A model generated the notes under the pieces. That model ran no database searches and had not been told where the DNA came from. It saw nothing but the letters and a program-made list of their open reading frames with translations. Source: a virus. Taken from it: a stretch of DNA of 41,087 nt. Shown one piece after another: positions 5,303 through 41,087 of this stretch (position 1 is the first letter of the stretch; each line of letters begins with the position of its first letter). The stretch lies in the IMG/VR virus record IMGVR_UViG_3300021406_000021, positions 1 through 41,087 of that record; one strand, 5' to 3'. The position numbers were made by a program, and so were the translations under genes.

Positions 5303-5360
5303 GAGTGTGACACTCGAGCCCGAATTAATTTCGCGTCATCTTTTGAAGCGACGTCGCAGG

Positions 5361-5744
5361 TCAGCCGTTGATGATCTGGACGTCCCAATCGTCGGGCTGC
5401 GGCTGCTCCTCGAGATTGTTCACTTCGGCCTTCGCCAGCGCGTACTTCAGTCGCTTGTTCTCGGTCTGGTACGCCGCAAGCTGGTGGCGCAGGAGCGGCA
5501 CAGCCAGGACGTCGTTCAAGTAGATCTGCCAGTTCTCCGGGGAGCATAGGCAGCCTCCTCGGATGCCCCAGCCGGTCCAGGCGGGGTCCAGATGACCCAG
5601 GTCCCCGGTGAGCACCCAGAGGGCCGATTGGGGCGGGCATATTGCCCCCCGTTTCCACCGGCGGGCCGTCGTGATGTCCACGGCACAGCGTTCCGCTATG
5701 TGCTTGACGGATAAGCCAAAAAGCACTTCTTTGGGGTCGAGCAT
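5361..5744 (-). CDS. DUF3653 phage regulator-like protein
   Basis: This 127-residue protein matches the DUF3653 pattern: an N-terminal HTH-like region (LFGLSVKHIAERCAVDITTA, then RRWKRGAICPP), a Trp-rich central part LGHLDPAWTGWGIRGG, and a C-terminal helix ending in an acidic tail. Members are small phage proteins thought to bind DNA. I chose ATG 5744 (MLDPKEV); GTG 5753 adds three residues. The dif-like site lies in the intergenic segment just upstream. Confidence 0.72.
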   Translation of the reverse strand: MLDPKEVLFGLSVKHIAERCAVDITTARRWKRGAICPPQSALWVLTGDLGHLDPAWTGWGIRGGCLCSPENWQIYLNDVLAVPLLRHQLAAYQTENKRLKYALAKAEVNNLEEQPQPDDWDVQIING

Positions 5745-5767
5745 GACCGGCACAATAAGCTCGATTT

Positions 5768-5795
5768 AGTGCGCATAATGTATAGAATGGAGCCA
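5768..5795 (+). other. dif-like site, candidate XerCD attachment site (attP)
   Basis: Bases 5768-5778 read AGTGCGCATAA and 5779-5784 read TGTATA. Against E. coli dif (XerC arm GGTGCGCATAA, centre TGTATA) this is 16 of 17 identical. The following eleven bases (5785-5795), where the XerD arm should be, match only about 3 of 11. A good XerC arm beside a degenerate XerD arm is known for attP sites of elements that integrate with host XerC/XerD. The site sits in the 83-base gap between two leftward genes (5745-5827), and no integrase gene is seen. The minus strand of the same bases also contains a TATACATTAT box that could act as a -10 element, so a promoter is the main alternative. Confidence 0.6.
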
Positions 5796-5827
5796 TCATA
5801 TTGCGACTTCTCAAGAAACGCTACTTG

Positions 5828-6073
5828 TTAGTTTTGTGAGTGTTGGAATTCGCGATGTGTCAGGTAGGAGCGGGCGCGGCGCTCGTTGGGTAGCTTCTCA
5901 GGGCCCAACTTCTTCCGCAGCTCCGCCAGCGCGCGCATGGCCGTGGCCACGGAAACATTTTTGTAGGCCGCGGCGTCTTTGACGGAGACGCCTGCCTCCC
6001 GTAACTGGCGCAGCTCGAACTTATCTCGAGTCGTCAGGAGGGGAGCGGGGCCATGACGGATCACCTCGCTCAT
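5828..6073 (-). CDS. HTH-type DNA-binding protein, 81 residues
   Basis: Starts MSEVIRHGPAPLLTTRDKFE at an ATG overlapping the upstream stop (TAATG). The core LRQLREAGVSVKDAAAYKNV followed by SVATAMRALAELRKKLG is a typical helix-turn-helix with a recognition helix around residues 45-60. The C-terminus is basic. Probably a small regulator within the early operon; the dif-like site lies about 35 bases downstream of its stop. Confidence 0.68.
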   Translation of the reverse strand: MSEVIRHGPAPLLTTRDKFELRQLREAGVSVKDAAAYKNVSVATAMRALAELRKKLGPEKLPNERRARSYLTHREFQHSQN

Positions 6074-6327
6074 TACGCCTCCCTCTGCGGCCGCGCTTTG
6101 TGGCGGTTCGTAGGACGGATCGTCATCCGGCGCTCGCCGATAAAATCGGCCAAGTCTCGTAACCCCACGGCGAAACCGCGTAGGGATGTCGCTACGCCGA
6201 TTTCGGAAAGATCGCACTCAGCCCTCTCGGCGTAACGCGCGAGCCGCCTGGCAGCGGCCTCCATGCTCGCAATGAGCTGTGCGCGGCTACCTTTTCGCCG
6301 GGGCTTGAGGTGCTTGGACTGTCTCAC
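6073..6327 (-). CDS. small hypothetical protein, 84 residues
   Basis: A basic protein (MRQSKHLKPRRKGSRAQL...) made mostly of predicted helices with alternating Ala/Arg (ASMEAAARRLARYAERAECD, then FAVGLRDLADFIGERR). Its ATG overlaps the stop of the Ref-like gene (ATGA). No family recognised. Confidence 0.65.
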   Translation of the reverse strand: MRQSKHLKPRRKGSRAQLIASMEAAARRLARYAERAECDLSEIGVATSLRGFAVGLRDLADFIGERRMTIRPTNRHKARPQREA

Positions 6328-9656: not shown

Positions 9657-9666
9657 AAGCATGCTT
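9657..9666. promoter_or_regulatory. operator OR (cro side), AAGCATGCTT
   Basis: Perfect palindrome containing the ATG of the Cro-like gene and the predicted start point of PR. Because operator and start codon coincide in both genes, both proteins begin Met-Leu-Lys. Confidence 0.75.
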
Positions 9667-9873
9667 AAAGCCGATGTCCTCGCCCGATTCAAAACCCAGA
9701 CTGCAATTGCCGAACTTCTCGGCATTACGGTCCAGGCGGTTTCCCAATGGGGAGAAGTCGTTCCCGCTTCCTCTGCCGTTCGACTCGAGGCCCTTACGCA
9801 TCGTCAGCTTCGTGTCGACGCTGGGCTTTACGGACCTACCGTCAAACACGATTCGTCAGTTCATTCGTCTTAG
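9661..9873 (+). CDS. Cro-like regulator, 70 residues
   Basis: A small basic DNA-binding protein with a helix-turn-helix at about residues 12-30 (TQTAIAELLGITVQAVSQWG), followed by a short dimer-type tail. It is divergent from the repressor, separated by 16 bases that are mostly operator. The length and the motif fit YdaS/Cro-type proteins. It should compete with the repressor for AAGCATGCTT and favour lytic growth. The ATG lies in the operator and no ribosome-binding site can be present if transcription starts there, so leaderless translation is expected. No cII- or O/P-like gene follows. Confidence 0.8.
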   Translation: MLKADVLARFKTQTAIAELLGITVQAVSQWGEVVPASSAVRLEALTHRQLRVDAGLYGPTVKHDSSVHSS

Positions 9874-13058: not shown

Positions 13059-13309
13059 TCAAACTCGCCTTCCAGGCCGCAATCCCCGGCCCGCTGTTCG
13101 ACGATCCCACCGACTGCCTGCATCGAGTGGTCAAACCGATGTTGACCGCTCTACGCGAGCAATTGCGCGAGAAGGGTATTCCCGCGAATGTCCGTATCAG
13201 CATCATGGTGGATGAGGTTCCACCTGAATTGCTGCCCGAGGAGCGCATCAGCATCAAGGATGCCGTAAAGAAAGCCCTCGCCGAGGGCACAATCGTGGAT
13301 GTGCACTGA
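13055..13309 (+). CDS. hypothetical protein, 84 residues
   Basis: Starts MIKLAFQAAIPGPLFDDPTD (ATGA overlap) and has a helix LTALREQLREKGIPANVRIS followed by a strand and an acidic amphipathic helix. It precedes the GroES-like gene with a one-base overlap. No family recognised. Confidence 0.6.
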   Translation: MIKLAFQAAIPGPLFDDPTDCLHRVVKPMLTALREQLREKGIPANVRISIMVDEVPPELLPEERISIKDAVKKALAEGTIVDVH

Positions 13310-13695
13310 TGCTCGAACAATCCGGCGTCAGTCTCGCCCGCAAACGCATCGACCGCATTCCCGCCGATGCTTCCATCCGCCCGTTGCGTGACCAGATCGT
13401 GATCAAGCCCCTCGCCTGGCAGCCCAGCAAGATCCTGGAGGTGGTATATCGCGGCCGTACCCTGCGCGGCGAGGTCCTGGCCGTAGGCCCGGGCCACTAT
13501 CCGAAGAAATACAACCGCGACCGTAGCAAGTCGTGGGACAGCAAACAGTTCGTGCCCACTCAAGTCAAGGTCGGCGATGTCGTGGAGCTCGGTGGCTTGG
13601 AACTCCGCGGCTACGCCTTCGATGAACTGCTGTGGGGTGATCAGACTGTCGTGATGTGCAGGGAAGCGGATGTGACGGGGATCGTGCATGGCTAG
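13309..13695 (+). CDS. GroES-like co-chaperonin domain protein
   Basis: A 128-residue protein with the Cpn10 fold signature: IRPLRDQIVIKPLAWQPSKI (about residues 23-42), LRGEVLAVGPGHYPKK, VKVGDVVEL, and the C-terminal DELLWGDQTVVMCREADVTG. The mobile-loop position (after IVIKP) is present, but there is no clear hydrophobic IVL tripeptide. Phage co-chaperonins such as T4 gp31 replace GroES to fold coat protein; lying shortly before the virion operon fits that role. Whether it works with host GroEL is not known. Confidence 0.75.
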   Translation: MLEQSGVSLARKRIDRIPADASIRPLRDQIVIKPLAWQPSKILEVVYRGRTLRGEVLAVGPGHYPKKYNRDRSKSWDSKQFVPTQVKVGDVVELGGLELRGYAFDELLWGDQTVVMCREADVTGIVHG

Positions 13696-14349: not shown

Positions 14350-14549
14350 GTGACGACCTGTGCATTGTGACGCGGCCGTATCCATACACGATCGACAATC
14401 GCGCTGATCCGCGCGAATGCTTCAACTGCCATAAGACACCGCTGCAATATTTGATCAATAGTGATGAGTGGTTTTGCCCTCATTGCAAGCGCTCGTACCA
14501 GTGCGGCGTGAATGGCTTTCCAGCTTACCCCCAAGCAGCAGGAGGCTAA
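14346..14549 (+). CDS. zinc-ribbon protein between terminase genes, 67 residues
   Basis: Starts at GTG 14346 (overlapping the terS stop) and carries ECFNCHKTP (CxxC) and WFCPHCKRSY (CxxC), a clear four-cysteine zinc ribbon at residues ~24-50. The last 38 bases overlap the start of the large terminase gene. A role in packaging is suggested only by position. Confidence 0.6.
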   Translation: MSDDLCIVTRPYPYTIDNRADPRECFNCHKTPLQYLINSDEWFCPHCKRSYQCGVNGFPAYPQAAGG

Positions 14550-15855
14550 TCGCCTTCTCGCCTCAGCCGCCCAGCACATCATGCTGTTCGGCGGCTCCCG
14601 CAGTGGCAAGACCTTCTTGATCGTGCGCGCCATCGTGGTTCGTGCGTTGAAGGCGCCCAACTCCCGTCACGTCTCGCTGCGCTTCAGGCTGGGCCACATC
14701 AAGTCCAGTATCGTCATGGATACCTTCCCCAAGGTGATGCAGTTGTGCTTTCCCGGGGTGAAGTACGAGCTCAACAAGAGCGATCTGTACGCTCGCTTCG
14801 AGAACGGCGCTGAGTACTGGTTCGGTGGGCTCGATGACAAGGAGCGCACCGAGAAGATCCTAGGCAACGAATACGCTACGATCCACCTGAATGAGTGCAG
14901 TCAGATTCCCTGGAACTCGCGCAATATCGCGCTCACTCGCTTGGCGCAGCTCGTCAACCAATGTATCAACGGCGTCGAATCGGTTCTCTCGCTGAAGATG
15001 TACTACGACGAGAATCCACCGGATAAGGGTCACTGGACGTACAAGCTGTTCCGCAGCAAGCAAGACCCGGAGACCAAGGGGCCGCTGCCAGATCCAGAGC
15101 GTTACGCTTCGATGCAGCTCAATCCGAAGGACAACGAGGCCAACCTGGGCGCGGACTACGTGCGGACACTCCAGGGCCTTTCAGCGCGTCTTCAGAAGCG
15201 ATTTCTGTTCGGCGAGTTCCGCGAGTCTGCACCCAACGCACTGTTCATCGATGAGACTCTGGATCGCTGGCGTGTGGTCGATGATGACCTGCCCGACATG
15301 ATTCGCACGCTGGTGGCGGTCGATCCCAGCGGGTCCGACGATGAGGACAATCAGGACAATGACGAGATCGGGATCGTTGTGGGTGGCCTGGGCACCAATG
15401 GCATCGGCTACATCTGGGAAGACCTGACCTGCAAGGTCGGCCCTGCCACTTGGGGGAAGATCGCCACCCAGGCTTACGAGCGCCATTCCGCCAATGCAGT
15501 GGTGGCCGAGGTGAACTTCGGCGGCGCGATGGTCAAGCACGTCATCCACACCGCTCGAGCGCGCACACCGTTCCAAGCTGTCACTGCCAGTCGTGGCAAG
15601 GTCGTCCGGGCTGATCCGGTCTCGAGCCTCATGGAAACCGGTCAAGTGCGTCTGGTGGGCTTCATGCGCGAGCTCGAGGATGAGTTGTGTGGATTCACCA
15701 CTCATGGCTACACCGGCGAGCGTTCTCCCAACCGGGCGGACGCCATGATCTGGTTGGTCAGTGCGCTCTTCCCGGATCTTCTGAGTACGAAGGACCGCAA
15801 GAAGACACAGCAGGTTGTCCCTCCTCCCTTGCGTCCCCAAGGTTGGATGGGCTGA
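14512..15855 (+). CDS. terminase large subunit
   Basis: A 447-residue packaging motor. The ATPase part has Walker A GGSRSGKT (residues 27-34) and Walker B with catalytic Glu in TIHLNECSQ (about 123-131). The C-terminal RNase-H-like nuclease part begins LVAVDPSGSDD (first metal Asp, near residue 265) and ends with SPNRADAMIWLVSALF. It cuts concatemers and pumps DNA into the procapsid. Given the P22-like portal, headful (pac) packaging is likely but not proven. Confidence 0.93.
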   Translation: MAFQLTPKQQEANRLLASAAQHIMLFGGSRSGKTFLIVRAIVVRALKAPNSRHVSLRFRLGHIKSSIVMDTFPKVMQLCFPGVKYELNKSDLYARFENGAEYWFGGLDDKERTEKILGNEYATIHLNECSQIPWNSRNIALTRLAQLVNQCINGVESVLSLKMYYDENPPDKGHWTYKLFRSKQDPETKGPLPDPERYASMQLNPKDNEANLGADYVRTLQGLSARLQKRFLFGEFRESAPNALFIDETLDRWRVVDDDLPDMIRTLVAVDPSGSDDEDNQDNDEIGIVVGGLGTNGIGYIWEDLTCKVGPATWGKIATQAYERHSANAVVAEVNFGGAMVKHVIHTARARTPFQAVTASRGKVVRADPVSSLMETGQVRLVGFMRELEDELCGFTTHGYTGERSPNRADAMIWLVSALFPDLLSTKDRKKTQQVVPPPLRPQGWMG

Positions 15856-15920: not shown

Positions 15921-18074
15921 ATGGCTCAAACTGCCGCCGCTCAATCCGATAACGACATTCTCGTCGAGGCCCGCAAACGCCTCGCCCTTGCATCGGATTC
16001 TGAGTCTTCCAACCGCACAGAAGCGCTGACCGATCTGCGGTTTGGTAACGGCGATCAGTGGCCGGTCGACATTCAGCGAGACCGGGAGACAGATGGTCGG
16101 CCCTGTCTCACCATCAACATCACCGATGCGATGGTCCGCCGGGTCTGCAATGCTCTGCGCGAGAATCGGCCCCGTATCAAGCCGCATGCGGTCGGCAACA
16201 ACACCAATGTCGAGGATGCCCAGGCCGCCGATGGTGTGATCCGTCACATCGAGGTCGCCTCTGGAGCGGATTACGCCTATGACTGCGGGGTTGAATCCGC
16301 CGTTCGGTGTGGATGGGGCTATTGGCGGGTCGGTTCGAAGTACATCGACGACAAGAGCTTCGATCAGGATCTCACGATCGAGGCCATCACCAACCCGTTC
16401 ACCGTCTACAAAGATCCCGCCTCGCGTGCTCCCGACGCCTCTGACATGAACTGGTGCCTGGTGTCCGAATGGATACCACGCGAGGAGTATTTGGAACGCT
16501 ACGGCGATGAGGGCATGCCCTACAGCCGCTTCAGGAGCGCGCTGAGCACCATCGGCAGTGCCTTCAACTTCATGGGCGCGGGCGATGAGATCGCCGATTG
16601 GAGCAAGAAGGAAGAGCTCCGGGTGGCCGAATACTGGCGTGTCACTACGAAGATGGACACGCTCTACCTCTATTCGAACGGCAGCACGACCTTCAAGGAA
16701 GACAAGCGCGCTTTCGACAACACTGGCATGCAGATTGTCCGCGAGCGCAAGGTATTACGGCGCGCGGTCGAGTGGTATCTGCTCTCCGGAGATCGTGTGT
16801 TGGATCGTCGCGACTGGCCGGGGAAATGGATTCCGATCATCGCCTGTTACGGTCGCCAAACTGATCTGAACGGCAGGATCGTCCGCAAGGGAATGATCCG
16901 CGATCTGCGCGATCCGGCGCGGATGTTCAATTACAGCGAGACCTCGAAAACCGAGACCTATGCGTTGCAGCCCAAAGCACCCTGGTTGGGTGCCGAAGGG
17001 TTCATGGAAGGTCACGAGGCGGCGTGGCGGGATGCCAATCGCAAGCCGATCGTCGCGCTCGAGTACAAACCCATCATCGGGCCGGACGGCCAACTCGCGC
17101 CACCGCCGTTGCGACAGATGCCGCCTGAGCCCGCTTCCGGATTTGCGGAGTGGTCCCAGAGCAACCAATCGAACTTTCTATTCGTCGCGGGCATGCCGCA
17201 TGAGCCGGATGCCGACAAGAAAGGCGAAGTCGTCTCCGGTATCGCGATCAAGAAGCGCGAAGGATTGGCGGACGTCAGTCATTTCGACTTCTATGACAAC
17301 CAAGTGCGTTCTTTACGCCATACCGGTCACGTGTTGGTCGATCTGTTTCAATACTTCTACGACACCCAACGTGTCCAGACCATCATCAAGCCCGATGGCA
17401 AGCCCGACCAGATCACACTCAACGATCCGGCCGAGAACCTAGTCAAGAACAACCTGAAGACCGCCACTTTCGGGATCGTGATTGATACCGGCCCGAGTTA
17501 CGCCACGCAACGAGAAGAGAGCGCGGAAGCGAAGCTCGAACTCATGGCCACACCGTTGGGTGAGATGGTGGGCAAGCTGGCCGGTGACCTGGTTATCCGC
17601 GGCATGAACTTCGAGAACGCGGATGAGATCGCCGACCGTATCCAAGCGCAGATTCCTGGCGCTCAGATTGACAAAGACTCGGACCTGCCGCCCAAGGCGC
17701 AAATCATCATCGCGGGTCTGCAGGCGCAGTTGAAACAGGATCGGCAGCAACTTCTGGCCGCACACCTGGAGATCGAGGCCAAGCATGGCCTGCAGAAGAT
17801 CAAGGAGGATGGGGAAAACCAACGCCTGCAGTTCAAGGAGCGGGCCGAGACCGAGCGCACCCAGATGGAGTTGGGTATCAAGCGCGAGGATACCCAGACC
17901 AACGCGCACGTGAAGATTCACGACACGCATGTGAAGGCCGTCACAGCCCATGACGTGGCTGAAATCAAGGCTGCCGCGACATTGCTCAATACCAACACCG
18001 AAGCCGAGCACAACAAGGCCGCCGCCAAAGAGGCGTTGAAGGCCGGTGAAGCGGCTGAGAAGAAAGAGGTTTAG
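15921..18074 (+). CDS. portal protein, P22 gp1-like
   Basis: A 717-residue portal, close to the 725 of P22 gp1. The N-terminal part carries SSNRTEALTDLRFGNGDQWP, CLTINITDAMVRRVCNALRE and NRPRIKPHAV, followed by GVESAVRCGWGYWRV; this is the P22-type portal pattern. The C-terminal ~110 residues form a charged helix rich in Lys/Glu (from about residue 600), comparable to the P22 barrel. Twelve copies would form the DNA entry ring. It lies 65 bases after terL, across an AT-rich segment with the inverted repeat GATAT/ATATC. Confidence 0.9.
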   Translation: MAQTAAAQSDNDILVEARKRLALASDSESSNRTEALTDLRFGNGDQWPVDIQRDRETDGRPCLTINITDAMVRRVCNALRENRPRIKPHAVGNNTNVEDAQAADGVIRHIEVASGADYAYDCGVESAVRCGWGYWRVGSKYIDDKSFDQDLTIEAITNPFTVYKDPASRAPDASDMNWCLVSEWIPREEYLERYGDEGMPYSRFRSALSTIGSAFNFMGAGDEIADWSKKEELRVAEYWRVTTKMDTLYLYSNGSTTFKEDKRAFDNTGMQIVRERKVLRRAVEWYLLSGDRVLDRRDWPGKWIPIIACYGRQTDLNGRIVRKGMIRDLRDPARMFNYSETSKTETYALQPKAPWLGAEGFMEGHEAAWRDANRKPIVALEYKPIIGPDGQLAPPPLRQMPPEPASGFAEWSQSNQSNFLFVAGMPHEPDADKKGEVVSGIAIKKREGLADVSHFDFYDNQVRSLRHTGHVLVDLFQYFYDTQRVQTIIKPDGKPDQITLNDPAENLVKNNLKTATFGIVIDTGPSYATQREESAEAKLELMATPLGEMVGKLAGDLVIRGMNFENADEIADRIQAQIPGAQIDKDSDLPPKAQIIIAGLQAQLKQDRQQLLAAHLEIEAKHGLQKIKEDGENQRLQFKERAETERTQMELGIKREDTQTNAHVKIHDTHVKAVTAHDVAEIKAAATLLNTNTEAEHNKAAAKEALKAGEAAEKKEV

Positions 18075-19152: not shown

Positions 19153-20475
19153 TTGGCTAACAATCTGCTCACGATCTCACAGATCACCAACGAGGGCCTC
19201 ATGGTCCTCGAGAACGATCTGTGTTTCGCCGATCACGTCAACCGGCAGTACGCGGATCAATTCGCGCTGTCGGGCGCGAAAATCGGCTACACCGTCAACG
19301 TCCGCAAACCGCCGCGGTATATCGGAGTCACCGGGCCCGCGCTGAGTGTCGAGGACACCAACGAGACCTATATCCCCGTCACGCTGACCACGCAGTTCCA
19401 CGTGGACGTGCAATTCACGACGGCGGATCTGGCGACCTCCATCGACCTGTTCAAAGAACGCATCATCAATCCGGCCGTGGCCACTGTGGCCAACAAGATC
19501 GATCGTGACGGCGCGGTGTTCGCCTACCAGAACATCGCCAACGCGGTCGGTACCCCGGGTACGCCGCCGGCCTCTTTCCTGTCCTTCACCCTGGCGGGCG
19601 CGGTACTGGATGGTGAGGCGGCTCCGCGTGACGGCTATCGCGTTGTGATCCTCGATCCCTTCAGCATGGCCTATGCGCAGGATGGGGTGAAAGGTCTGTT
19701 CAACCCCCAGGCGCAGATCAGTGAGCAGATCCGCAAGGGCATGATCGCGAAGAACTTCGCCGGCTTCGACTGGTACATGGATCAGAACGTGGTCTCGTAC
19801 ACCACCGGGGCCGCGAGCAGCCAGACCACCGCGCCCACGTTGTCCAACAACACCTCCAGTGCGTGGCTGGCTTCCGGATGGTCGCAGTCGGGGTACATGG
19901 AGACCACCAACTGGACCGCCTCCACGGGCGTTCTGACGGTCGGTGACATCATCACCGTCACAGGCGTGTTCTCGGCGAACCCGCAGAATCGCGGTGCGTA
20001 TGGAGGCGCCCGCCAGCGTCAGTTCACGGTAATTCCGCCGGTGGGAACCCAGACCTCAGGCACTTACAACAGTGCGACAGGGGTCTATACGTCCGGTTCC
20101 GGTGCCGGCGCTCTCTCGGTCTATGTGGCGAACACCGGGATCTACGCCGGCCAGTTCCAGAACATCACCGCACAGCCCTCAAGCTCCGCGACCCTGCAGG
20201 TGTGGGGCTCGACGGGAAACACCTTCCCGAACAAGAGCGTGGTCACCCCGCAGAACATCGCGATGCATCGCGATTGTCTTGCCTTGGCATTCGCGGATCT
20301 GGATCTGCCCGGCGGTGTCGACATGGCCGCTCGAGCGGTGGACGAAGAGGCGGGGATCAACTTCCGCGTCGTGCGCCAGTACACCATCAACAACGACGCT
20401 CTCCCGTGCCGCTTCGACGTGCTGTATGGCTGGGCAAAACTCTACCCGGAACTCGGCGTCCGGATCTCAGGGTAA
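19153..20475 (+). CDS. major coat protein, P22 gp5-like
   Basis: A 440-residue coat protein (P22 gp5 has 430). The N-terminus ANNLLTISQITNEGLMVLEN and KIGYTVNVRKPPRYIGVTGP, and then FKERIINPAVATVANKIDRD, fit the P22 coat family with an HK97 fold. Residues ~215-340 (Ser/Thr/Gly-rich, starting TTGAASSQTTAPTLS) occupy the place of the inserted I-domain. It starts at TTG, with GGAG eight bases upstream, which is unusual for the most abundant virion protein; no ATG or GTG is nearby in frame. Confidence 0.9.
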   Translation: MANNLLTISQITNEGLMVLENDLCFADHVNRQYADQFALSGAKIGYTVNVRKPPRYIGVTGPALSVEDTNETYIPVTLTTQFHVDVQFTTADLATSIDLFKERIINPAVATVANKIDRDGAVFAYQNIANAVGTPGTPPASFLSFTLAGAVLDGEAAPRDGYRVVILDPFSMAYAQDGVKGLFNPQAQISEQIRKGMIAKNFAGFDWYMDQNVVSYTTGAASSQTTAPTLSNNTSSAWLASGWSQSGYMETTNWTASTGVLTVGDIITVTGVFSANPQNRGAYGGARQRQFTVIPPVGTQTSGTYNSATGVYTSGSGAGALSVYVANTGIYAGQFQNITAQPSSSATLQVWGSTGNTFPNKSVVTPQNIAMHRDCLALAFADLDLPGGVDMAARAVDEEAGINFRVVRQYTINNDALPCRFDVLYGWAKLYPELGVRISG

Positions 20476-21844: not shown

Positions 21845-22816
21845 ATGAGCACGGTCTCTACGACGGCCATGGATCTGGTCGTCAGTGCACTGCGCAACAT
21901 CAACGCACTGGAAGCGGGGGAAGTCCCGAACCAGAACGACGCTGCCGATGCGCTTCAGACGCTGAACGACATGATGGAGAGCTGGTCGACGGACAAGCTC
22001 TTCGTCTACGCGGGCGTGGAGAATCTGCTCAGTTGGACACCAGGGCAGTATCAGTACACGGTCGGTAACCCGGTCGGTGGAACTTTCTCAGGCACACTGG
22101 TCGGTAGTTCTCCCACGATCAGCAACGTCACTATCCCGGCCAATCTGATCCTGGGCGGCACGGTGACGGACTTCAATGCACAGGTCCCCCCGGGCACCAC
22201 CATCACGGCAATCGGCACCAATACGGTGACGATGAGCGCCAATGCGCTCTCGACCGTCAGCACGCCTGAAACTTTCACCTACACGACTCCGGGAAACTTC
22301 GGCATTGCGCGTCCCTTGAGAGTGACTCGCGCCTTTACGCGCATCACCTCGGCCGGAACAACAGGGTTGGATTATCCGATCGATGTCGATGAGACCGGCG
22401 ACAAATACGCCGCCATAGGGCTCAAGGGCATTCCCGGGCCGTGGCCAATCCTGCTGTATTACAACCCGACATTCCCGTTCGGCAATCTCTATTGCTACCC
22501 GAACCCGCAGCAGGCCGGCGTCCTGCATCTGTGGACGGACACCATCTTCACGGACTTTGTGAACCCGACGCAGTTGATCAATCTCCCGCAAGGTTATGCG
22601 CGGGCGATCAAGAAGTCTCTCGCGCTCGAGCTCGTGCCGGAATACGGCAAGATCGGCAGCACCCGACTGGCATTGCTCCAGGGTCAGGCCCGCGATGCGG
22701 TGGAGAAGATCAAGAAACTGAACTCCACTCCTGCCGTTCAAGCTTTCTTCGACCGCGACATCGTCCGCACCCGTCGGACGGATGCGGGTTGGATCTTCCA
22801 CGGAGGGTTCAACTAG
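21845..22816 (+). CDS. tail accessory / head completion protein, P22 gp4-like
   Basis: A 323-residue protein. The N-terminal helices (SALRNINALEAGEVPNQNDA, ALQTLNDMMESWSTDKLFVY) and the C-terminal part (FVNPTQLINLPQGYARAIKK, LALELVPEYGKI) fit P22 gp4, which seals the portal and starts the tail. P22 gp4 has 166 residues; here an extra beta-rich Gly/Thr segment of about 90 residues (about 60-145, NPVGGTFSGTLVGSSPTISN...) is inserted after GQYQYTV. Close relatives in other P22-like phages carry such inserts, possibly Ig-like. Confidence 0.8.
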   Translation: MSTVSTTAMDLVVSALRNINALEAGEVPNQNDAADALQTLNDMMESWSTDKLFVYAGVENLLSWTPGQYQYTVGNPVGGTFSGTLVGSSPTISNVTIPANLILGGTVTDFNAQVPPGTTITAIGTNTVTMSANALSTVSTPETFTYTTPGNFGIARPLRVTRAFTRITSAGTTGLDYPIDVDETGDKYAAIGLKGIPGPWPILLYYNPTFPFGNLYCYPNPQQAGVLHLWTDTIFTDFVNPTQLINLPQGYARAIKKSLALELVPEYGKIGSTRLALLQGQARDAVEKIKKLNSTPAVQAFFDRDIVRTRRTDAGWIFHGGFN

Positions 22817-24582
22817 TGGCCGACAAGGGCGCGGACTTCGGTTTCGTGGGGGGATCGTACGAGGCAGCCATGGTGCTGCAGGATACGCAACGCCTGATCA
22901 ACTGGATGGTAGAGGTCGACCCCAGCATCGAGGCCAAAGAACCTATCGCGCTCTTAGGCACGCCAGGACTCAACCCCGTCATCAGCACCATTACCGGTCC
23001 CGTGCGAGGTGCCTGGGTGCTCCCCGGTGATCTGACGTGCTTGTTTGTGGTGAGTTCGAGTGTATATCTGGCGACGGTCACCACTGCGGCGACCCAGACA
23101 AACATCGCCCAATTCTCGGTCATTCAAGTGGGGACATTGCTCACGAATGCAGGTCGGGTCGTGATCCGGGATAACGGCGTGCTCTTTAACGGCTTGGGAG
23201 GGTATGCCGTACTGGTCGATGGTATCTACGGTTATTTCTATCGTATGGGTGGCGCGGGCTCCGTGACGTTCACGGGCAACCTGACTTCGGGACAGCCGAC
23301 GATCAGCTTCACTACGGGTGATATCGTTCCGAATTATCTGATTGTTTCGAGTGGGGCGATTACCGACAGTTTGGGCGCCATCCCGTCCACCACGATCCAA
23401 TCGATCAGTTTTACCGCTAACACGATCACGTTGAACGCGAATGCCTCATCCAATGAAACGGATGACGTTTTCACATTGCAGATCCCGCAGTTCGGTCAGA
23501 TTCTCGATCCTGCCTTCCTAGGAGCCAGCCGGATCGCTTTCATTGAAGGTTGGCTGATCTTCAATCAGCCCGGGACACGCACGTTCTATACCAACGCCCC
23601 GACTCCTTATACGCTCACCTTTGCCGGTGCGTTCTACGCGTTGAAGGACAGTTCCACTGACAATCTTGTCACGCTGTTCGAAAATAATCGCGAAGCTTTT
23701 CTGATCGGCGAGAGAACAACTGAAGTCTGGTACAACGCCGGAGGCTCCAGTTTCGCATTCCAACGCCTGCCCGGTATTGGTCCCCAAGTGGGGGGTGCGG
23801 CGGTTCACTCCATAGCGAGAGTGGGAAACGATCTCGTCTGGCTTGGGCGAATCGGCGAAGCCGGCGAGAATATGGTGCTGCGCACGCAACAATACAACTG
23901 GGAGCGCGTCTCGACCCATGCGATAGAGCAGATCATCTCAAGCTATCCCGTCATTTCCGATGCTATCGGTGACTGTTACGAGGAAGCCGGTCACGTCATC
24001 TACCAGTTGACCTTCCCGACCGCCGACGCGACATGGTGTCTGGACATGACCGTCTTTGACCTTACCCAGGGGAAGCTGGGCTGGTTCCAACGACTATCAT
24101 GGAATTCAGCGACGGGCACCTATCACCGGCATGCGGCTAACTGCATGGTGAATTTCGCTGATCTTCTCCTGGCGGGAGATTACCAGACAGGTCAAATACA
24201 TCAGCAGAGCCGTTCCATCTATACCGATGCGGGCAACCCATTGCGATGCCAGCGGCGCACTCCGCATGTCTGGAGCAAGGAGAACCGCCAGAGAGTATTC
24301 GCCTCCTCCTTGCAGATCGAATTCACTCCCGGGGTGGGATTACAGATCGGGCAGGGCTCCAACCCGCAGATCATGCTGCGCTGGAGCAATGACGGCGGGT
24401 TCACCTGGAGCAATGAGCACTGGGTACCCATCGGTAAAGCCGGCGAGACGCGCAATCGAGCGCTGATCCGTCGCTTAGGAAAATTCCGTGATCGTGTCTG
24501 GGAAGCGAGTTTTAGCGATCCTGTCGCACGCGACATCATTGGTGCAACGCTGTTTGCTGAAGCCGAAGAGGAAGCTGCCTAA
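22816..24582 (+). CDS. packaged DNA stabilisation protein, P22 gp10-like
   Basis: Starts at GTG 22816 (MADKGADFGFVGGSYEAAMV), overlapping the gp4-like stop by one base (TAGTG); a much longer open frame upstream lies inside the gp4-like gene. The 588-residue beta-propeller-type protein has QDTQRLINWMVEVDPSIEAK, GTPGLNP, IAFIEGWLIFNQPGTRTFYT, FLIGERTTEVWYNAGGSSFA and FQRLPGIGPQVG, the P22 gp10 pattern (472 residues in P22). A beta insert near residues 145-240 explains the greater length. It forms the tail hub that holds packaged DNA. Confidence 0.85.
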   Translation: MADKGADFGFVGGSYEAAMVLQDTQRLINWMVEVDPSIEAKEPIALLGTPGLNPVISTITGPVRGAWVLPGDLTCLFVVSSSVYLATVTTAATQTNIAQFSVIQVGTLLTNAGRVVIRDNGVLFNGLGGYAVLVDGIYGYFYRMGGAGSVTFTGNLTSGQPTISFTTGDIVPNYLIVSSGAITDSLGAIPSTTIQSISFTANTITLNANASSNETDDVFTLQIPQFGQILDPAFLGASRIAFIEGWLIFNQPGTRTFYTNAPTPYTLTFAGAFYALKDSSTDNLVTLFENNREAFLIGERTTEVWYNAGGSSFAFQRLPGIGPQVGGAAVHSIARVGNDLVWLGRIGEAGENMVLRTQQYNWERVSTHAIEQIISSYPVISDAIGDCYEEAGHVIYQLTFPTADATWCLDMTVFDLTQGKLGWFQRLSWNSATGTYHRHAANCMVNFADLLLAGDYQTGQIHQQSRSIYTDAGNPLRCQRRTPHVWSKENRQRVFASSLQIEFTPGVGLQIGQGSNPQIMLRWSNDGGFTWSNEHWVPIGKAGETRNRALIRRLGKFRDRVWEASFSDPVARDIIGATLFAEAEEEAA

Positions 24583-25292: not shown

Positions 25293-25717
25293 GCGATCTC
25301 GCCCACATCCCGACGCGTGAGGACATCGAGCGCCTGCAAGCCTCGATGTGCGCGTTACCGCAGGTAATGCTGCAGACCCGACATTACTTCGCGGATGGCC
25401 TGTATTGCCGTGAACTCTCCCGGCCGGCGGGCACCACGATTGTCGGCAAGGTGCACAAGAAAGAGCATCTCTACATCGTGCTCACCGGAGAAGTGACGGT
25501 GGTAGGGGAGGGAATGAGCGAGCGCATCAAGGCACCGCGGATTCTAGTGAGTCCTCCGGGGACAAAGCGCGCGGTCTATGCCCACGAGGATTCGATCTGT
25601 GTCACGGTTCATCGGACGGATTCCACGGATCTGGATGCAATTGAGTTAGAACTGATCGAACCGGATGAGACCGCGCTCTTTGACGCCCACAACCAACTCA
25701 AGGGGCTGCTCAAATGA
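25289..25717 (+). CDS. cupin-domain protein in the tail module
   Basis: A 142-residue protein with a single cupin barrel: FADGLYCRELSRPAGTTIVG, KVHKKEHLYIVLTGEVTVVG (motif 1 with H57 and E60, and the conserved Gly), and IKAPRILVSPPGTKRAVYAH (motif 2 with Pro, Gly and a His). A metal site is possible. It lies where P22 carries gp14. It could be a structural cupin or an enzyme acting on virion or cell-surface sugars. Confidence 0.7.
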   Translation: MSDLAHIPTREDIERLQASMCALPQVMLQTRHYFADGLYCRELSRPAGTTIVGKVHKKEHLYIVLTGEVTVVGEGMSERIKAPRILVSPPGTKRAVYAHEDSICVTVHRTDSTDLDAIELELIEPDETALFDAHNQLKGLLK

Positions 25718-26508
25718 GCTGGATCGCGGCGGCAGTCGGCGGAGCATCGCTGCTGAGTGGCATTATCGGCGCCGGCGCATCGGAGTCGGCTGCCAGCCAA
25801 CAAGCTGCTGCAGCCCAGAATGCACAGAACATCAGCGAGCGCGAGTTCAATACCATCACGGGGCAGGAATCCCCGTACATGCAGTCCGGCTATGGGGCGC
25901 AAGGTCAGCTCAATTACCTGTTGGGAATCGGGACTCCGGGAACTGCCGCGACCACTGGAAACGGCACAATCCAAGGAACAGCGCCGACCGCGTCCTCGAG
26001 TCCGGGTGGCGGCTATGGCTCGCTGCTGCAGAACTTCAACACCAGCGACTGGCAGCAACTCTCGCCGGCCTATAACTTTCAGAAGCAGCAAGGAACTCAA
26101 GGTGTCCTGAATGCGGACGCGTCCGGGTCTGGAGCCCTCTCTGGATCAGCCTATAAGGATCTGATCAATTACAACCAGAATCTGGCGAACACGAGTTTCA
26201 ACAACGCGTTCAACCAGTACCAGACGCAGCAGGGGAATATCTACCAGCGTTTGGCTGGCGTCTCCCAGTTGGGCCAGAACGCCGCAGCGAATACGGGTCA
26301 GCAAGGCACTGCCCTAGCAGGTCAGGCGGCGCAGTCCGCGACTAATATCGGTACAGCCAATGCGGCTGGAACGGTGGGTGCGGCTAATGCCCTGACAGGC
26401 GGCATCAATTCAGCGGCCCCCTGGCTAGCTTATGGCGGTGGCGGCGGAACATCGACCGCCGGAGGTGCGGGTGGCGATGTCGTGAGCTCTTCCTATACAG
26501 GATACTGA
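25714..26508 (+). CDS. DNA ejection protein candidate (P22 gp7 position)
   Basis: A 264-residue protein starting MSWIAAAVGGASLLSGIIGA, a hydrophobic Gly/Ala segment typical of P22 gp7-type ejection proteins. It continues with AASQQAAAAQNAQNISEREF and an Ala/Gln/Asn-rich body (NQNLANTSFNNAFNQYQTQQ), ending in a glycine-rich tail. It is probably carried in the head and sent into the cell to help DNA cross the envelope. Assignment is by order and composition. Confidence 0.72.
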   Translation: MSWIAAAVGGASLLSGIIGAGASESAASQQAAAAQNAQNISEREFNTITGQESPYMQSGYGAQGQLNYLLGIGTPGTAATTGNGTIQGTAPTASSSPGGGYGSLLQNFNTSDWQQLSPAYNFQKQQGTQGVLNADASGSGALSGSAYKDLINYNQNLANTSFNNAFNQYQTQQGNIYQRLAGVSQLGQNAAANTGQQGTALAGQAAQSATNIGTANAAGTVGAANALTGGINSAAPWLAYGGGGGTSTAGGAGGDVVSSSYTGY

Positions 26509-35741: not shown

Positions 35742-36635
35742 ATGGAGCTCATCAATAAACAGAAGATAGAGCAATTGGTCCAGAGCTTGTATCTCATCGT
35801 CATGAATCGCGCTCCCGACCCAGGAGGAGCGCGATATTACGAAGATTTGATCGAGCGCATCGGAGTAGACCGCGCAATACCCGAGATGCTGCGGGCCTTC
35901 TTGAGTTCGCCGGAATATTCTGGGCGCCTAGACTACCGAGGATTGCATGTTTCGCCTACTCTGGCGAGTTATGGAACGCGCCTCATCAACGGCCTTCCTG
36001 TAAACCACGTTGTTTCTTTGGGAACCCATTGTCAGGCGAGTTCCGTGCTCAAAAACGGAGGGCTCAAAAAATACTCGCTTCCTTTTGATTGGCTCCTTTC
36101 AACACCGGAGATCGTGCTTGATTGTCTAGCGGATGACTTCGCGAACTTATTGAATCAACGATATTATCAATCCATTGCCTTCCCCAATGAATCACGAGCC
36201 GATCACACGCTCTACAGGGATCGATACGGGCTAGAGGCGATATTCACACATAGAGATCCCAGCAAAGAAGAACACTACGCCTATCTCAATCGCTGCGTGG
36301 AGCGCTTCCGTCGCTTACTGCAAAGCCCAGACCCGAAACTGTTCCTGATGACCAGTCGCAGCAATGTTGATCTACCTGGAGCCTTCCCGAAACTGGTAGA
36401 CGCACTCCTGCGGGTTTGTTCGAACTTCTCGCTCATGGGAATACACGTGCTGACGCCCACCGGGAAACCGGGCATTATTTCGATGACACCTATCATAGAA
36501 GGTGATCATAATCTCTATGCCATGCATCCTTCTTCCAGAGAAGATGCGTTCGCGCAATTCGAAGATAAACTGGATGAATGGACCATCCTGAGACTCATTC
36601 ACTGCTACAAGATCGCGCTCAAGGATTTTGCGTAG
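35742..36635 (+). CDS. cargo gene: DUF4214-like plus DUF1796-like protein
   Basis: A 297-residue protein in two parts. Residues ~8-60 fit DUF4214 (QLVQSLYLIVMNRAPDPGGA, then AFLSSPEYSG). Residues ~88-290 fit DUF1796, described as a putative papain-like cysteine peptidase: VVSLGTHCQASSVLK (92-104, with Cys97) and LPFDWLLS (113-120, PFDW motif). DUF1796 proteins are often encoded near surface-polysaccharide genes. It has its own promoter candidate, follows the lysis block, and converges with a leftward operon, the classic place for a lysogenic conversion gene. The DNA is more A+T-rich than neighbours. Confidence 0.68.
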   Translation: MELINKQKIEQLVQSLYLIVMNRAPDPGGARYYEDLIERIGVDRAIPEMLRAFLSSPEYSGRLDYRGLHVSPTLASYGTRLINGLPVNHVVSLGTHCQASSVLKNGGLKKYSLPFDWLLSTPEIVLDCLADDFANLLNQRYYQSIAFPNESRADHTLYRDRYGLEAIFTHRDPSKEEHYAYLNRCVERFRRLLQSPDPKLFLMTSRSNVDLPGAFPKLVDALLRVCSNFSLMGIHVLTPTGKPGIISMTPIIEGDHNLYAMHPSSREDAFAQFEDKLDEWTILRLIHCYKIALKDFA

Positions 36636-39283: not shown

Positions 39284-39500
39284 CGTGAGCGCGCCTTTTG
39301 GGCAATTCCCAGTCTGCGAGTTTGCACAGCCACTCCAGTTGCTTTGGGCTGAGGTAGGTGGTTAGGCCGCGCTCCTTCGCCTTGATGACCATCTCGGCGG
39401 CGAAGTCCTGCGAGGATTCACCTCGCGCTTGGGACTGAGCATCGCCGCAGAGCTGGCGGGACTCGCGCTCGTCCTCGAACCAGTCTGCGGCGGTGGTCAT
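39276..39500 (-). CDS. hypothetical protein, 74 residues
   Basis: Starts MTTAADWFEDERESRQLCGD (TAATG overlap). It has a helical middle and the segment RGLTTYLSPKQLEWLCKLAD, reminiscent of short phage proteins ending in a SPKQ-x-x-W-L motif. No function assigned. Confidence 0.6.
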   Translation of the reverse strand: MTTAADWFEDERESRQLCGDAQSQARGESSQDFAAEMVIKAKERGLTTYLSPKQLEWLCKLADWELPKRRAHDG

Positions 39501-39688
39501 TACGCTGCCTTCTCGGTGACAGGCATCACGTTGTCGCGACCGCCTGCCGTGAACGTCGCAGATTCAACGGACTGACCGATTCCAATCAGCTCGTAGACGA
39601 ACTCCTTTGCCTTCTCGTTGGCGTCGCTGGCAGGATTGCTGTTGTGGTGGGCTCCAGTGCCCTCAATGTGAATTACCCAATTACCCAT
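39500..39688 (-). CDS. conserved phage hypothetical protein, 62 residues
   Basis: I start it at ATG 39688 (MGNWVIHIEGTGAHHNSNPA) because AAGGAG lies six bases upstream, whereas an ATG two codons earlier touches that site. The pattern WVIHIEGTGAHHN, DANEKAKEFVYEL recurs in phage proteins I have seen. Function unknown. Confidence 0.68.
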   Translation of the reverse strand: MGNWVIHIEGTGAHHNSNPASDANEKAKEFVYELIGIGQSVESATFTAGGRDNVMPVTEKAA

Positions 39689-39731
39689 CGTCATCTCCTT
39701 CGTTGATAAAACTAAAAACTAACCGGACGCA

Positions 39732-40088
39732 CTAGACGGTATGCCTGCCTTCGACGCCTCTTGTCATCCGCTCTCGAGTCCTATCCTTCAATGACTCTTG
39801 GGCGCCGACCATGTGTTCCAGTGCCCGCTGGTTGTAGGAATTGGCGAAATTTCCCTTCTGGAAGCACTCCAGCCGGTCGATCAAGATCGCTAGCAGCGCT
39901 TCGTGCGTGAGGCCATTCACTCCCGCCTCGGCGATGGGGCCATTCTGGAAATCGATATGGTAGCGCTGTTGATCAGGCAGCGTGATCGAATACTGGTGAT
40001 GCGCACCGCCTGAGCCGGGTTCATCATGCACGAGAACGGTGAGCTTATCGTTGGCGGGATTTACCTTGTGACTGTTGAGTTCTCTCAT
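39732..40088 (-). CDS. conserved phage hypothetical protein, 118 residues
   Basis: Starts MRELNSHKVNPANDKLTVLV at 40088 with GAGG eight bases upstream; a frame-extending ATG at 40112 is less likely. The signature DEPGSGGAHHQYSITLPDQQ, then FQNGPIAEAGVNGLTHEALL and the end MTRGVEG is one I recognise from many phages, without a known role. It follows the methyltransferase by 43 bases. Confidence 0.75.
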   Translation of the reverse strand: MRELNSHKVNPANDKLTVLVHDEPGSGGAHHQYSITLPDQQRYHIDFQNGPIAEAGVNGLTHEALLAILIDRLECFQKGNFANSYNQRALEHMVGAQESLKDRTRERMTRGVEGRHTV

Positions 40089-40131: not shown

Positions 40132-41087
40132 TTACGCGGCTTTCTCTTGTGCCGCCTGCTCGAGCACGTTGGCGCGCACGAGCGCTTCGGCTACCGGAGG
40201 CGATACAGAATTCCCGCACATGTGTACGCTGGCGGCGTTCGAGAAGCGGATGGCGTTGCCATCGTCGTCGATTCCATGGTCGATGATGTACTCGGGCTGA
40301 AAGCCCTGTGCGTTGAACAACTCGCGCCGGTTGAGCATCCGGGTAGCTACGTCCGCTAACTGGTATTCGTCGCCCTTTACGGTCACGAGCGCGAACCGAT
40401 CTTTCGTCGTAATCGTATCGAGCGACCGGCGCAGACCGGGATCTTGACTCGTCCCGTAATACTTCATCAGGAAGGCATAAACCAGGTGATGGTGATCCTG
40501 CGTCGTGATCGTTGACATCGGCCTGTGGAGCGCACCTTGGCTGCCCTGTGCTGTGACAGTAGGGTAGGGAGTCCGAATGTCGTACACCCGCGGCGCCTGC
40601 TCTCCTTGGACGCCATGCCGCTCGCCGTTGCGAGTGTTGATCAGGGTTGGGGCGACCAGCGCATGATGTGTGCCTCCCGCGCTGATCGTGCGCAGGGGCT
40701 CGTGGATCGAGCTTGCTGACCGATCTATGTGAGTTGAATCGGTTCCGCGTAGGGTAACGATGAACGGATTCGGGTCGGTCACGACATAGCGCACGATTCC
40801 GCGTGCGATTCTTCGGAGCGTCGCGTCCACCAGAGGCTTGAGGCCGAATTTCTCGCGCTCAAAAATTGAAATGCACGGAGCTGACCAGTCAATACACTCA
40901 GCCGCCGTACGGTAGGGCCTCTGATAGCTGAACGGCCCGTGTGTTGCGTCTGGGAAGACGATCTCCCCGCCATCGCACCGAGCGATGATGAATAGCCGCT
41001 TGCGGGTCGTTGGCGCGCCGTAGTCACAGGCCCGCAGTTCACGCATGTCGATCGCGTATCCGAGGTTCTGGAGCTGTTTGCACCAGC
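40132..41087 (-). CDS. DNA (cytosine-5)-methyltransferase, C-terminal part
   Basis: This carries the remainder of the enzyme that starts at 452. It enters from the right end as WCKQLQNLGYAIDMRELRAC and contains motif VIII-like APTTRKRLFIIARC, a long target-recognition region, and motifs IX/X (MLNRRELFNAQGFQPEYI; MCGNSVSPPVAEALVRAN). In-frame joining across the window ends gives 466 residues in all. Annotated from the first internal Met alone it would seem a 304-residue fragment without a catalytic Cys. Confidence 0.88.
   Translation of the reverse strand, partial: WCKQLQNLGYAIDMRELRACDYGAPTTRKRLFIIARCDGGEIVFPDATHGPFSYQRPYRTAAECIDWSAPCISIFEREKFGLKPLVDATLRRIARGIVRYVVTDPNPFIVTLRGTDSTHIDRSASSIHEPLRTISAGGTHHALVAPTLINTRNGERHGVQGEQAPRVYDIRTPYPTVTAQGSQGALHRPMSTITTQDHHHLVYAFLMKYYGTSQDPGLRRSLDTITTKDRFALVTVKGDEYQLADVATRMLNRRELFNAQGFQPEYIIDHGIDDDGNAIRFSNAASVHMCGNSVSPPVAEALVRANVLEQAAQEKAA

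Follow-up and report, generated by a model that had tools for sequence, protein, structure and literature searches.

The DNA analysed here (the window) is the whole IMG/VR virus record IMGVR_UViG_3300021406_000021, 41,087 nucleotides in length. A dif-like site is situated between two minus-strand genes, one for a small HTH protein and one for an XafT-like protein, and a pair of short dyads lies close by (Table 1). The ends of the record (1-7 and 41081-41087) have CACCAGC in common, a 7-base overlap. Since a C5-methyltransferase gene (PF00145) becomes continuous across the junction once the ends are overlapped, the record is probably a complete, circularly permuted genome. Its portal, head, head-closure and ejection proteins, together with the Cro/repressor pair, are those of a P22-like podovirus. 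P22 itself encodes a tyrosine integrase, which inserts the phage at a tRNA gene. In the window, neither a tyrosine integrase (PF00589) nor a large serine recombinase (PF07508) was detected, and no transposase, partition or plasmid replication genes were found among the 30 window ORFs scanned with Pfam. Hence both elements of the original prediction concerning gene content, a lambda-like switch (here a P22-type Cro with a short CI-like HTH repressor) and the lack of integrase, transposase and partition genes, were borne out. No direct DNA relatives of the window were found in INPHARED or among E. coli genomes.

Table 1. Features of the putative attachment region and of the temperate podovirus genome that carries it (positions in the window).
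Feature	Position	Strand	Remarks
Partner dyad AGCGACGTCGCA	5347..5358	.	at the xafT end, just past the stop codon
xafT-like gene, HTH protein, 127 aa	5361..5744	-	NF040522, E 1.5e-8; start codon 23 bp from attP
Putative attP, dif-like	5768..5795	+	XerC arm 5768-5778 AGTGCGCATAA; central region 5779-5784 TGTATA; degenerate XerD arm 5785-5795 GAATGGAGCCA
Dyad TTGCGACTTCTCAA	5801..5814	.	just outside the XerD arm (6 bp beyond); varies by clade with partner dyad
Small HTH protein, 81 aa	5828..6073	-	beside attP in 14/14 phages; weak HTH_23 match of longer ORF 5828-6217
CI-like repressor (HTH_3), 104 aa	9330..9644	-	no peptidase domain found
P22-type Cro	9661..9873	+	PF14549, 3.8e-15
Terminase large subunit	14512..15855	+	phrog_979, 2.2e-66
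Portal protein	15921..18074	+	phrog_156
Major head protein	19153..20475	+	phrog_283
Head closure Hc3 protein	22441..24582	+	phrog_578
DNA ejection protein, podovirus type	25714..26508	+	phrog_598

The plus-strand sequence AGTGCGCATAATGTATA (5768-5784) matches the XerC arm and central region of E. coli dif (GGTGCGCATAATGTATA) at 16 of 17 positions. The sole mismatch falls on base 1 of the XerC arm, a column occupied by A or G among the phage relatives. This is the only match to the XerC arm and centre in the window at up to three mismatches, compared with 0.03 expected from shuffles, which excludes a chance match. The XerD arm (GAATGGAGCCA against TTATGTTAAAT) agrees at merely 3 of 11 positions and a full 28-bp dif was not found in the window at up to three mismatches. 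The site is intergenic: the minus-strand HTH gene on its right ends at 5828 and the minus-strand gene on its left starts with ATG at 5744. The near-identity of the XerC arm and centre to dif, combined with a divergent XerD arm, is the configuration of a TLCphi-type attP. Moreover, a dif-like attachment site inside an element that lacks PF00589 and PF07508 recombinases of its own is characteristic of integrative mobile elements exploiting Xer (IMEX). The match, its rarity, the poor XerD arm and the position between genes had all been described in the original prediction, and our analysis gave the same picture.

The strongest evidence, overlooked in that prediction, is a homologue of an Xer activation factor beside the site. 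The 127-aa product of the left-hand gene matched the NCBIfam family NF040522 (“VC1465 family Xer recombination activation factor”) with 34.7 bits; the curated cut-off of this family is 70 bits, and we therefore call the protein XafT-like, a divergent homologue. NF040522 was the only NCBIfam family matched by the aligned homologues from all 14 phages described below, the best E-value being 3.4e-12. VC1465 is presumably the XafT of TLCphi, as the family name also indicates. XafT is a XerD-activating factor (PMC9765430). The AF2 model of the window protein (pLDDT 82) comprises an N-terminal HTH, a beta hairpin and a long C-terminal helix; a fold search with it returned generic HTH matches only, none of them significant, and the protein has no sequence relative in the PDB. 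It also had no match in 50,697 phage records or in plasmids. Among phage isolates, a divergent XafT-like homologue matched only the Vibrio filamentous phages VCY, VFJ and VP24-2.

Relatives of the window terminase were drawn from IMG/VR and 37 larger ones were compared. An xafT-like gene was present in two of them (G003 and G017), and exactly these two carried a dif-like site at up to two mismatches, in the same place and orientation. Six of the 37 encode an integrase, none of which has xafT. Searches with the XafT-like protein or its alignment alone yielded 13 further tailed-phage loci, making 14 phages with the window. The order small HTH gene, dif-like site, xafT is kept in 14/14, and in each phage the xafT start is preceded, at a distance of a few tens of bases, by the dif-like XerC arm and centre, always in the same orientation; the weakest site, with 3-4 mismatches, is that of G039. 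When the 14 contigs (~0.46 Mb) were scanned end to end with TKCGCATAATGTATA, nine perfect and four two-mismatch sites were found, one per contig. There was no further match at up to two mismatches, and G039 gave 3-mismatch matches only. The exact extended site was found nowhere in IMG/VR. In the column profile of the 14 phages (with the G039 row shifted by one base) conservation is high through the central region and falls at the first base of the XerD arm. A conservation border at precisely this point is expected of an Xer site but not of a promoter. Were the motif instead a promoter or operator of the adjacent HTH gene with a fortuitous likeness to dif, this would suit the AT-rich core and the location just upstream of a gene start, but it would not account for letter-for-letter conservation of dif as far as the XerD arm and none past it, nor for a neighbour family that is linked to dif in 20/20 bacterial genomes (see below), and we regard this explanation as extremely improbable.

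The 14 phages span at least three head lineages (portal phrog_156, portal phrog_1216 and the phrog_332 head-tail adaptor; also head phrog_334), thus the module has been transferred between phages. It is not strictly a replacement for an integrase, since one xafT phage contig (G041; L099/L107) also encodes a tyrosine integrase (39394-39831, open frame of 306 aa). This phage has either two integration systems or one that replaced the other.

Furthermore, the same XafT profile identified xafT-like genes in 20 bacterial genomes, and in all 20 a dif or dif-like site was located within 3 kb of the gene; the gene thus accompanies such a site in 14/14 phages and 20/20 genomes. In genome G648 (L166-L167), one end of a ~11.5-kb provirus carries xafT and a full dif side by side; at the other end is a site with an intact XerC arm and a degenerate XerD arm. 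These ends are the structure required of recombination between an attP of the window type and dif. The provirus encodes a packaging ATPase and genes which by eye resemble those of a tailless double-jelly-roll virus. Tandem element copies in G176 have the same type of junction, and an element in G684 has the look of a filamentous prophage (Zot-like protein, by eye). Tailless double-jelly-roll-like proviruses with xafT-like genes were observed at or beside dif in both G648 and G387 (L145). The use of XafT seems to reach beyond filamentous satellites.

In the search for related prophages at chromosomal dif that had been suggested along with the original prediction, xafT-bearing tailless, filamentous and satellite elements were seen integrated at dif, but no tailed prophage was found in GTDB, where scanning with the XafT alignment turned up no relative. 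None of the 20 genomic xafT loci, some of which were examined in detail, was seen to be a tailed prophage; the elements examined from searches by class, order and family were all tailless, filamentous or small, and a head-protein search of genomes returned three MAG contigs, all without xafT or the site. Uncultured soil hosts may explain why no integrated tailed example came up in GTDB. A site with a single degenerate arm is able to resolve multimers, and the genome looks circular, so that the dif-like site might serve dimer resolution of a phage-plasmid (in the manner of cer or psi) and not integration. We consider this very unlikely: plasmid replication and partition genes are missing among the scanned proteins, and the genomic relatives of XafT reside at chromosomal dif in elements with dif-like ends, which indicates integration.

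Attachment through host Xer at dif is strongly supported in this podovirus by comparative sequence evidence, because 14 phages have the site in the same position, always adjoining a homologue of the Xer activation factor. Lysogeny by means of host XerC/XerD, as originally suggested, is thus favoured; integration of this phage at dif, its activation by XafT and the XerD-first order are our inferences. With high confidence we interpret 5768-5795 as the attP of an integrase-less temperate P22-like podovirus that uses host XerC/XerD at dif in the XafT-activated manner of TLCphi. Host XerC and XerD would recombine attP with chromosomal dif. By analogy with TLCphi, the phage-supplied XafT-like protein would activate XerD on the attP-dif synapse independently of FtsK; XerD would then swap the first strands and XerC would resolve the junction. 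Recombination is predicted to restore a complete dif next to xafT, whereas the dif next to the HTH gene would have a degenerate XerD arm.

On the order of strand exchange the original prediction, which had deduced XerC-first from the degenerate XerD arm, is probably wrong. In the attP of TLCphi the XerC site and centre are near-identical to dif and the XerD site is divergent, yet recombination is XerD-first (PMC4246890, PMC5357621); the argument from the arm therefore fails, and here, too, an activation-factor gene adjoins the site. Use of the site in the way of VGJphi, with XerC exchanging the first strands and the XafT-like protein acting merely as a transcription regulator, would be compatible with the good XerC and degenerate XerD arms, with the HTH in the XafT-like proteins and with the annotation of relatives in the Vibrio filamentous phage VFJ as transcription regulators. 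Nevertheless, we judge it unlikely. The entire central region is conserved, its XerD-proximal end included, whereas homology on the XerD side of the centre is absent from VGJphi and kept in the XerD-first TLCphi (PMC5357621, PMC4246890). Moreover, the neighbouring gene is a member of the Xer activation factor family.

In addition to the TLCphi-type site and its putative activator, the locus contains two dyads that bracket xafT and occupy the same places in the window and in G017, G038, G040, G044 and G047. Within one phage the two are alike; between clades they are of either the TGCGACnTCGCA type or the TATCAtAA/TATCAAAA type. The dyad sequence covaries by clade with the putative recognition helix of the small HTH protein. 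This joint change suggests, at the sequence level, that the dyads share a binder, and the 81-aa protein may be a regulator or a directionality factor. XafT was also considered as the dyad binder. This candidate was down-weighted because its putative recognition helix, the TTARRW stretch, is the same throughout, unlike the clade-specific dyads, and it is the small HTH protein, not XafT, that varies with them.

The attP splits a leftward gene block (5361-6073), an arrangement that might form a self-limiting switch. With attP placed in this minus-strand block between xafT and the HTH gene, the anatomy implies that integration would part xafT from any upstream phage promoter and could shut it off. 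A more far-reaching proposal, which we put forward as speculative and rather less probable than its failure, is that the small HTH gene, the dif-like attP, xafT and the two clade-matched dyads make up a swappable cassette that takes the place of the integrase module in soil tailed phages of several unrelated lineages. In this scheme the product of the small HTH gene would bind the dyads as a new Xer directionality factor, and integration would cut xafT from the leftward operon and lock the prophage until induction.

The closest known system is TLCphi of Vibrio cholerae, whose attP likewise joins a degenerate XerD arm to an intact XerC arm and centre, and which carries the Xer activation factor gene and no integrase. 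TLCphi is, in contrast, a satellite of filamentous phages and has no virion genes, whereas the element described here is a tailed dsDNA podovirus whose 41-kb genome, probably complete, includes repressor/Cro and lysis genes. Its site is flanked by an additional conserved HTH gene and by paired dyads. VGJphi and CTXphi, which represent other IMEX classes, share the dif-like attP and the recourse to host XerC/XerD that is predicted here; they differ in being XerC-first, in the folded single-stranded DNA used by CTXphi and in that the sources covering them contain no XafT. The gonococcal genomic island (GGI) has in difGGI a good XerC arm and centre with a divergent XerD arm and is XerD-first, but it is not a phage and relies on FtsK for the activation of XerD. 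Tailless dif-integrating phages (NO16, Jorvik-like, G648) have dif-like att sites, several lack their own integrase and G648 has an xafT-like gene; their virions are tailless and their genomes are ~10 kb. With P22/lambda-type podoviruses the phage shares the phrog_156 portal, head proteins and Cro.

Tailless and filamentous dif prophages are already known (PMC9966536, PMC10589892, PMC11630473), and so are IMEX of the TLCphi type. A literature search covering the open-access part found no report of a tailed phage using dif; as far as we found, what is new is the presence of such an attP with an xafT module in tailed phages. Hijacking of Xer has so far concerned mainly filamentous phages, along with some tailless phages and a few islands. 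Should tailed phages of ~40 kb use Xer as well, the absence of an integrase from such a genome would no longer imply a lytic or plasmid-like life. The XerC arm would then offer a clue to the host, and the terminus would have to accommodate a large insertion alongside FtsK-driven dimer resolution. For XafT, experimentally known from one satellite phage, the present set provides natural variants together with candidate binding sites and a partner gene that is conserved, so that FtsK-independent control of XerD can be put to the test.

As regards induction of the lysogen, the CI-like repressor has 104 aa and no detected peptidase domain, hence induction through its RecA-stimulated self-cleavage probably does not occur. 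Two other genes of the window may be mentioned. Between the replication and packaging genes, 13309-13695 encodes a Cpn10-like protein scoring just under the Pfam cut-off. A late-end gene (35742-36635) combines DUF4214 with a putative papain-like cysteine peptidase domain (DUF1796), an unusual cargo for a phage.
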